A stretch of DNA of 64,000 nucleotides from a virus. Below the pieces are notes generated by a model. It was not told the origin of the DNA and ran no database searches. It saw only the letters and a list, made by a program, of their open reading frames with translations. A program made the position numbers and the translations under genes. Each line of letters opens with the position of its first letter. The first letter of the stretch is position 1. The stretch spans positions 128,198 through 192,197 of IMG/VR virus record IMGVR_UViG_3300020172_001601; one strand, given 5' to 3'. Below are positions 53,814 to 59,895 of this stretch, in pieces.

Positions 53814-53886
53814 GTTCCCGTAGCTCAATTGGCAGAGCGGTGAACTCTAAATTTGCTGGTTGTGGGTTCGACTCCCACCGGGGACG
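53814..53886 (+). tRNA. Amber-decoding tRNA (anticodon CTA), first copy
   Basis: Acceptor GTTCCCG/CGGGGAC (one G-T pair), D-stem GCTC/GAGC, anticodon stem GTGAA/TTTGC with loop CTCTAAA, T-stem GTGGG/CCCAC, discriminator G, CCA not encoded. Position 33 is T and bases 34-36 are CTA, which pair with UAG. The G discriminator fits glutamine-type or tryptophan-type charging. The structure is complete, so this is a functional-looking suppressor tRNA. Confidence 0.92.
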
Positions 53887-53900
53887 CTTGAGGTAAAAAC

Positions 53901-54510: not shown

Positions 54511-54581
54511 GCTCCGTTGGTATAGAGGTTGTGCCGGGAACTCTAAATTCCCAGAGACGGGTTCGAGTCCTGTACGGAGCA
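54511..54581 (+). tRNA. Amber-decoding tRNA (anticodon CTA), second copy
   Basis: Acceptor GCTCCGT/ACGGAGC (perfect), D-stem GTAT/GTGC (with G-T pairs), anticodon stem GGGAA/TTCCC with loop CTCTAAA, T-stem ACGGG/CCTGT, discriminator A. Bases 34-36 are CTA. Its body differs completely from the first copy, but the anticodon loop is identical, so the two may be charged with different amino acids or have been captured separately. Confidence 0.92.
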
Positions 54582-59381: not shown

Positions 59382-59436
59382 GATTGCGGTGAAGAATAGA
59401 TAATCGCAGTAACCCACAAGAATTTTGGAGAAAGCC

Positions 59437-59895
59437 ATGACTCACTAGGTATCAACTTCGACCCGCAAGAGCCACGTTTACATCTTTGTCCGTCGTGACT
59501 TGCCGCCAGCACAAATTGTTGTGCAGGCTTCGCACGCTGCTTTTGAAGCAGCCTCTCTTCGCACCCCTGAACTCGACCACCCGCATTTCGTCTTGCTTGG
59601 ATTCCGTAATCAGCAAGAACTCGAACGGGCGCTTCGTCGTGTTCAATCTTCGGGGTTCCAGGTCTGCCCATTTTTCGAGGCCGACCGTGGTGACGAACTT
59701 ACCGCTTTCGCCACCCAGCCCATTTTCGAGCATCAGCGTTCGTTTTTTCGCCGGTATAACTGCCTGAGCGACGATCTGCTGTTTTCTGGCTTCACATAGG
59801 GCAAATCAAAAAATATATCCTCAGCCGAAGGTCCGTCCGTTGTATTGGACGCTGATCCCGGAGAGGGTGCGCACTTACAGGAAGCAATAGCATGA
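59437..59895 (+). CDS. Pth2-like peptidyl-tRNA hydrolase with amber codon 4 (and amber read-through end)
   Basis: The only start with a ribosome site (TTTTGGAGAAAGCC) is ATG 59437. Codon 4 is TAG (59446-59448), and no other start lies between it and the conserved domain. The domain (SHVYIFVRRDLPPAQIVVQASHAAFEA, then HFVLLGFRNQQELERALRRVQSSGFQV) matches peptidyl-tRNA hydrolase 2, which frees tRNA from stalled peptides: an RxDL strand, then the Q-x-x-HA helix. A second in-frame TAG at 59797-59799 ends the standard frame. Read as sense, the frame continues 31 codons to TGA 59893-59895, overlapping the next ATG by ATGA. The two CTA tRNAs could decode both ambers. Alternatives are a pseudogene or a sequencing error at codon 4. 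Confidence 0.72.

Follow-up and report, generated by a model that had tools for sequence, protein, structure and literature searches.

A conserved stop codon near the start of phage Pth2-like genes as a probable translational gate dependent on phage suppressor tRNA

Organisation of the locus

The window (the whole stretch of DNA analysed, 64,000 nucleotides) is part of a 340,341-base IMG/VR phage record and contains the Pth2-like gene and the associated features listed in Table 1. The leader of this gene (59427-59448) consists of GGAG, six nucleotides and ATG-ACT-CAC-TAG, after which the frame stays open from the gate TAG up to the TAG at 59797-59799. The preliminary description had recognised a good Shine-Dalgarno sequence and ATG with TAG as codon 4, followed by an open Pth2 domain without a usable later start, and both points were borne out. 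No in-frame ATG, GTG or TTG was found between the gate TAG and TTG 59500. In the AlphaFold2 model of the domain, strand 1 is formed by residues 8-15 after the TAG, so that a start at TTG 59500 would delete this strand. The layout supports the proposal that the Pth2-like protein would be produced whole only if the UAG is read. The gene shows the complete arrangement referred to below as gated: a Shine-Dalgarno sequence with ATG, 1-8 codons, an in-frame stop codon and a domain lacking any other start. Neither the two CUA tRNA genes of the window nor the HD-domain partner of the relatives had been mentioned in the preliminary description.

Table 1. Coordinates of the Pth2-like gene and associated features in the window
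Feature	Position	Strand	Basis or remark
tRNA, anticodon CUA (putative amber suppressor), copy 1	53814..53887	+	ARAGORN; Rfam tRNA, 59 bits; loop CTCTAAA
tRNA, anticodon CUA (putative amber suppressor), copy 2	54511..54581	+	ARAGORN; Rfam tRNA, 49 bits; loop CTCTAAA
Shine-Dalgarno sequence GGAG	59427..59430	+	6 nt upstream of ATG; sequence
Start codon and gate, ATG ACT CAC TAG	59437..59448	+	Sequence; kept across the family
Gate codon TAG (codon 4)	59446-59448	+	+4 base G, fits the +4 purine rule
PTH2-fold domain, 116 residues, 3' of the gate	59449..59796	+	AlphaFold2, pLDDT 91; Foldseek; PHROG 34073 and 1866
TAG regarded as the normal stop of the gene	59797..59799	+	Extension 59800-59892 without coding signal
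Next gene, 348 aa	59892..60938	+	No Pfam match; its ATG overlaps TGA 59893-59895

Family assignment

The top 14 PDB matches of the window domain in Foldseek were all PTH2-family structures, with 2zv3, 3erj, 1q7s and 1xty as the best (probability 1.0, TM-score about 0.7), which confirmed the fold that had been assigned to the domain from its sequence. The Pfam PTH2 profile (PF01981) gave the window protein 15.2 bits, below the curated cut-off of 23; the lysine of the canonical GK motif is replaced by glutamine, and the acidic Glu77 as well as Thr85 are invariant across the Pth2-like family. These PTH2 residues have a catalytic role. The modelled structure supports membership of the window protein in the PTH2-fold family, as a divergent, putative peptidyl-tRNA hydrolase. 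A second, ungated canonical PTH2 (92.6 bits) is encoded by the same phage outside the window (G000:125517-125882).

Variant arrangements of the domain were observed in a few relatives. In L031, L038 and L060, it is fused behind a different domain of ~125 residues and has no gate; a CUA tRNA lies near L031 and L038 nonetheless. In L017 (3946-4030), the domain is located in the +1 frame of a Shine-Dalgarno-ATG frame that hits UAG at codon 11, an offset that may reflect either a frameshift or an assembly error.

Conservation of the gate in relatives

GenBank phages were searched with tblastn, which yielded 29 records. Eight of the first ten that were read have TAG at codon 3-5 directly before the domain, the ninth (RAS14) has TAG at codon 3 of a longer, fused gene, and RaK2 is the sole ungated one. 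In IMG/VR, alignment-based searches retrieved 73 loci with the Pth2-like protein and 80 with the HD-domain protein described below, unlike a single-sequence query, which returned no match among viral contigs. After removal of duplicate contigs, 144 records were left. In these, the codon at the gate position of the Pth2-like gene was determined, giving 91 N-terminal gates with TAG, 3 with TGA and 1 with TAA, and a further 2 TAG gates in genes with GTG/TTG starts. When both genes were considered, a gate in at least one of them was found with TAG in 111/144 records, with TGA in 5 and with TAA in 1. The stop occupies codon 2-9, mainly 3 or 4, with the ATG 1-8 codons upstream, and the gate is kept in phage homologues down to about 20-40% identity. 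In 1.2 Mb of loci, the pattern of Shine-Dalgarno sequence, ATG, 1-7 codons, TAG and at least 90 open codons was detected in 67 Pth2-like and 35 HD genes; elsewhere in the same sequence, on both strands, it occurred 9 times with TAG, 11 times with TGA and 5 times with TAA, all these counts including near-identical loci. Six of the nine TAG cases elsewhere are gated canonical PTH2 genes. The putative gate pattern exceeds chance.

Gated genes are overlooked or shortened in databases. PHROG 34073 (77 residues) and PHROG 26054 (46 residues) correspond to incompletely annotated Pth2-like and HD genes, respectively, that are interrupted by a stop, which explains these two families as cut-off versions of longer genes.

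Pseudogenes are typically recognised by a premature stop codon, and a decaying gene, a sequencing error or an assembly error could each produce one. About 95 related records have the stop within codons 2-9; it is shared by isolates from several laboratories (ME3, CBB, GAP32, XbC2, SNUABM_19 and Arash) and precedes a domain that remains open and conserved. This conservation refutes error or decay for the family as a whole, and the chance of such an origin is practically negligible.

Short leader peptides exist, and engineered CUA initiator tRNAs are able to start translation at UAG. ATG-x-TAG could accordingly be a mere leader, with the protein initiated at or after the TAG, either in a non-standard manner or by an initiator-like CUA tRNA. 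Against this explanation, an ATG, usually with a Shine-Dalgarno sequence, lies 1-8 codons before the gate, and a clear start after the gate is lacking in several homologues: in L021, L045 and L064, only 2-3 residues separate the gate from strand 1, and no start codon is found there. Moreover, the HD genes of the GAP32-type phages, L015 and L035 carry TAG about 47 codons inside the gene. Initiator-type CUA tRNAs were rejected as candidates, as the GGG initiator stem was present in 0/106 suppressor tRNAs. Late initiation is thus highly unlikely.

The HD-domain partner and gated canonical PTH2 genes

Many Pth2-like copies adjoin a gene for an HD-domain protein (PHROG 14850) with the invariant motif H..HD..K..H...DM..H. 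Stops in this gene comprise 57 N-terminal TAG, 3 N-terminal TGA and 13 internal TAG codons. The protein is essentially phage-only: six loci, mainly on MAG contigs, were found in 85,462 genomes, and three of these six have a gate and a CUA tRNA 70-180 nt past the gene. The model of the HD protein (pLDDT 97.5) was closest to the HD portions of 3wfo-3wfs, entries for a tRNA processing enzyme, at an E-value of 0.016 that lies above the usual 0.001. HD-PTH2 fusions with TAG at codon 3-5 occur in RAS14, L043, L074 and XacN1. In L102, L106, L110, L112/113 and L120, loci in which no divergent Pth2-like gene was detected, the gate is carried by a genuine Pfam PTH2 gene (66-88 bits) upstream of the HD gene. 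These genes support the tie to peptidyl-tRNA hydrolysis that had been suggested for the window gene. No HD match was obtained in the window's own 340-kb record, and the partner, common in relatives, is not essential to the gate.

Suppressor tRNAs and their match to the gate

A cognate suppressor tRNA is present in the genome of the window phage in the form of the two CUA tRNA genes; a pattern search of the whole record revealed no further ones. They lie 4.9 kb from the gate, farther than in those relatives that have the tRNA within the locus. Where the cognate tRNA lies within the locus, it shares the strand of the gated gene in 74/74 cases, at a median distance of 466 nt, and the most frequent anticodon in the loci is CUA (84/471 tRNAs). 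Among TAG-gated records, a CUA tRNA was found in 82 and a UCA tRNA in 0; 33 had no detected CUA tRNA, a figure that includes fragments and stems from an incomplete search. All five TGA-gated records have a UCA tRNA and none has a CUA tRNA, with the UCA tRNAs of L098 and L121 found only in the whole-record search. In L082, both genes are TGA-gated and two UCA tRNAs are present. Within the Pth2-like tree, gates with TGA originate at three distinct positions. The stop codon of the gate and the anticodon of the predicted suppressor correspond (Fisher p 2.7e-8, uncorrected for kinship).

A CUA tRNA also occurs in nine ungated records; none was detected around the gene of the ungated phage RaK2 or among the pattern hits examined for it. 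For the TAA-gated locus L016, no UUA tRNA was detected on the 33-kb contig, and TAA as a third gate stop is unsupported. Genes for tmRNA, several of them permuted, were observed in or near loci L082, L052, L056, L295 and L296.

Codon context and stop codon usage

In representatives selected at 85% identity, the gate TAG is followed by a purine (+4) in 107/109 cases, compared with 39/71 for ordinary terminal TAG codons (p 2e-13) and with 788/1340 at codons 4-5 of ordinary genes (p 4e-21). The base after every TGA gate is G. Amber suppression is raised by +4 purines, up to tenfold for SupE (PMC6266110), and the purine bias at the gate is what would be expected as a trace of selection for readthrough. 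The stop/anticodon match, the linkage and this codon context together support the dependence on suppressor-tRNA supply proposed in the preliminary description.

TAG is avoided as the terminator of the gated genes themselves, being found in 2/90 and 1/55 of them; the former figure refers to the Pth2-like genes, and the window gene is one of the two. For the window gene, reading of the second TAG (59797) had also been considered, with an extension of 31 codons that ends in an ATGA overlap with the next gene. The extension and the overlap at TGA 59893-59895 are present in the sequence. The extension scores as non-coding, however (-0.08 per codon, compared with 0.21 +/- 0.12 for coding and -0.18 +/- 0.14 for out-of-frame windows). 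Given this score and the rarity of TAG ends, readthrough of the second TAG was rejected, and the simplest reading is that it is a true stop.

Recoding is frequent among phages with CUA tRNAs (PMC13037316), and the gene might be just one of many affected by a genome-wide reassignment of TAG of the code 15 type. TAG terminates 20 of the 73 predicted window genes, conserved window genes with internal TAG were not seen in number, and hardly any gated patterns occur in other gene families, which makes such a reassignment very improbable. As TAG is still a common terminator in this genome, the code has not changed, and suppression has to be incomplete or short-lived. Back-up stops were not seen in excess.

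Release factor of the window phage

At 1717-2524 of the window, a phage class-I release factor was identified (PCRF 84.5 bits, RF-1 72 bits, RF1-like motif VPPT). Its zero frame, MSKNNQWHSQERKGDSSAMVCL, stops at TAA 1783-1785, and the body lies in the +1 frame. The two frames join at CTT TAA C, a frameshift site of the RF2 type with UAA as the stop. A homologous release factor in a 595-kb phage (L314, LR756511, about 438-590) appears to require a +1 shift at CTT TAA C followed by a second one at CTT TGA C, with the TGTCTTTAACTC site being common to it and the window. This phage also has a Pth2-like gene beginning with MTH-TAG.

Discussion

The gate, its conservation, the anticodon match, the linkage and the codon context can be read from the genomes themselves. 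They suggest that the TAG serves as a translational gate that is conserved and depends on phage suppressor tRNA, a reading to which we assign a probability of roughly 0.87 that covers the gate and the tRNA dependence, purpose excluded. Ribosomes would initiate at the ATG and, on meeting the stop around codon 3-5, would normally terminate. Once made, matured and charged, the phage suppressor tRNA (CUA in the window phage, UCA in TGA-gated relatives) would outcompete the release factor, the stop would be read and the PTH2 protein produced, in relatives together with the HD protein. We infer that this decoding takes place in infected cells and that the genes are silent without the tRNA. The circuit would act as an AND gate of gene transcription and phage tRNA supply. 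Readthrough itself, the amino acid inserted, the enzyme activity of the products and the purpose of the arrangement are put forward here as what comparison of the sequences suggests.

The main rival holds that the gate senses scarcity of RF1, similar to the RF2 (prfB) sensor, with the suppressor tRNA merely setting the ratio. Decoding of UAG is always contested by RF1, and the phage encodes its own RF1-like factor. On the other hand, the type of stop follows the anticodon of the suppressor, and the gate is genetically linked to its cognate tRNA, which marks the tRNA as the specific partner; sensing of RF1, which overlaps with the tRNA-supply model, is less likely. It is probable that the tRNA-dependent gate constitutes a dedicated circuit, in which phages with the standard code retain a suppressor tRNA mainly for unlocking the PTH2 and HD operon, stop codon and anticodon changing together.

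The purpose of such a circuit may, tentatively, be a checkpoint on phage tRNA supply for the upkeep of peptidyl-tRNA and tRNA, in which enzymes acting on peptidyl-tRNA and tRNA ends would be permitted only once phage tRNAs are available. As the host lacks such a tRNA, the gate would report on the phage tRNA pool alone. Short peptidyl-tRNAs drop off at stops and slow codons, at codon 2-5 (PMC10192219), and drop-off and PTH2 may be linked by a feedback.

The reason for the presence of stop-reading tRNAs in phages with the standard code was previously an open question, and the orphan CUA and UCA tRNAs of such phages gain a likely specific, conserved target. XacN1, a standard-code Xanthomonas jumbo phage, has two CUA tRNAs for which its authors found no target (PMC5852040). 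Its ORF364, the HD-PTH2 fusion, carries a TAG as codon 3, ahead of the annotated start, and is a candidate target of these tRNAs. If the proposed mechanism holds, a stop codon and the phage's own tRNA would form a switch for single genes, beyond a change of the whole-genome code, and the circuit would represent a checkpoint on the phage tRNA supply.

No description of the gate was found in the literature searched, which excluded most subscription journals and all preprints. In jumbo phages, PTH2 has been proposed to free cloven peptidyl-tRNAs (PMC7824862); the passages of that report that were consulted mention neither a stop gate nor an HD partner nor a link to suppressor tRNAs, and the window copy is divergent. 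tRNA-dependent lysogeny (PMC10865867) is based on a different mechanism. Stop-codon recoding with suppressor tRNAs is known in phages as genome-wide reassignment (PMC13037316). In crAss-like and jumbo phages with code 15/16, a CUA or UCA tRNA likewise reads the stop, and control of gene timing has been proposed; there, TAG is reassigned over many genes, whereas here only two neighbouring tRNA-related genes are gated, TAG is still a common terminator and the stop lies mostly near the start. The +1 frameshift at an early UGA of prfB similarly ties the synthesis of a translation factor to the state of termination; the gate involves no frameshift, a suppressor tRNA acting in trans would be the competitor, and the protein made is of the PTH2 or HD type. 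The same logic, an early nonsense codon (amber or opal) combined with a controlled suppressor tRNA, underlies an engineered leak dampener (PMC7969014), a synthetic feed-forward circuit of which the phage gate appears to be the natural counterpart.
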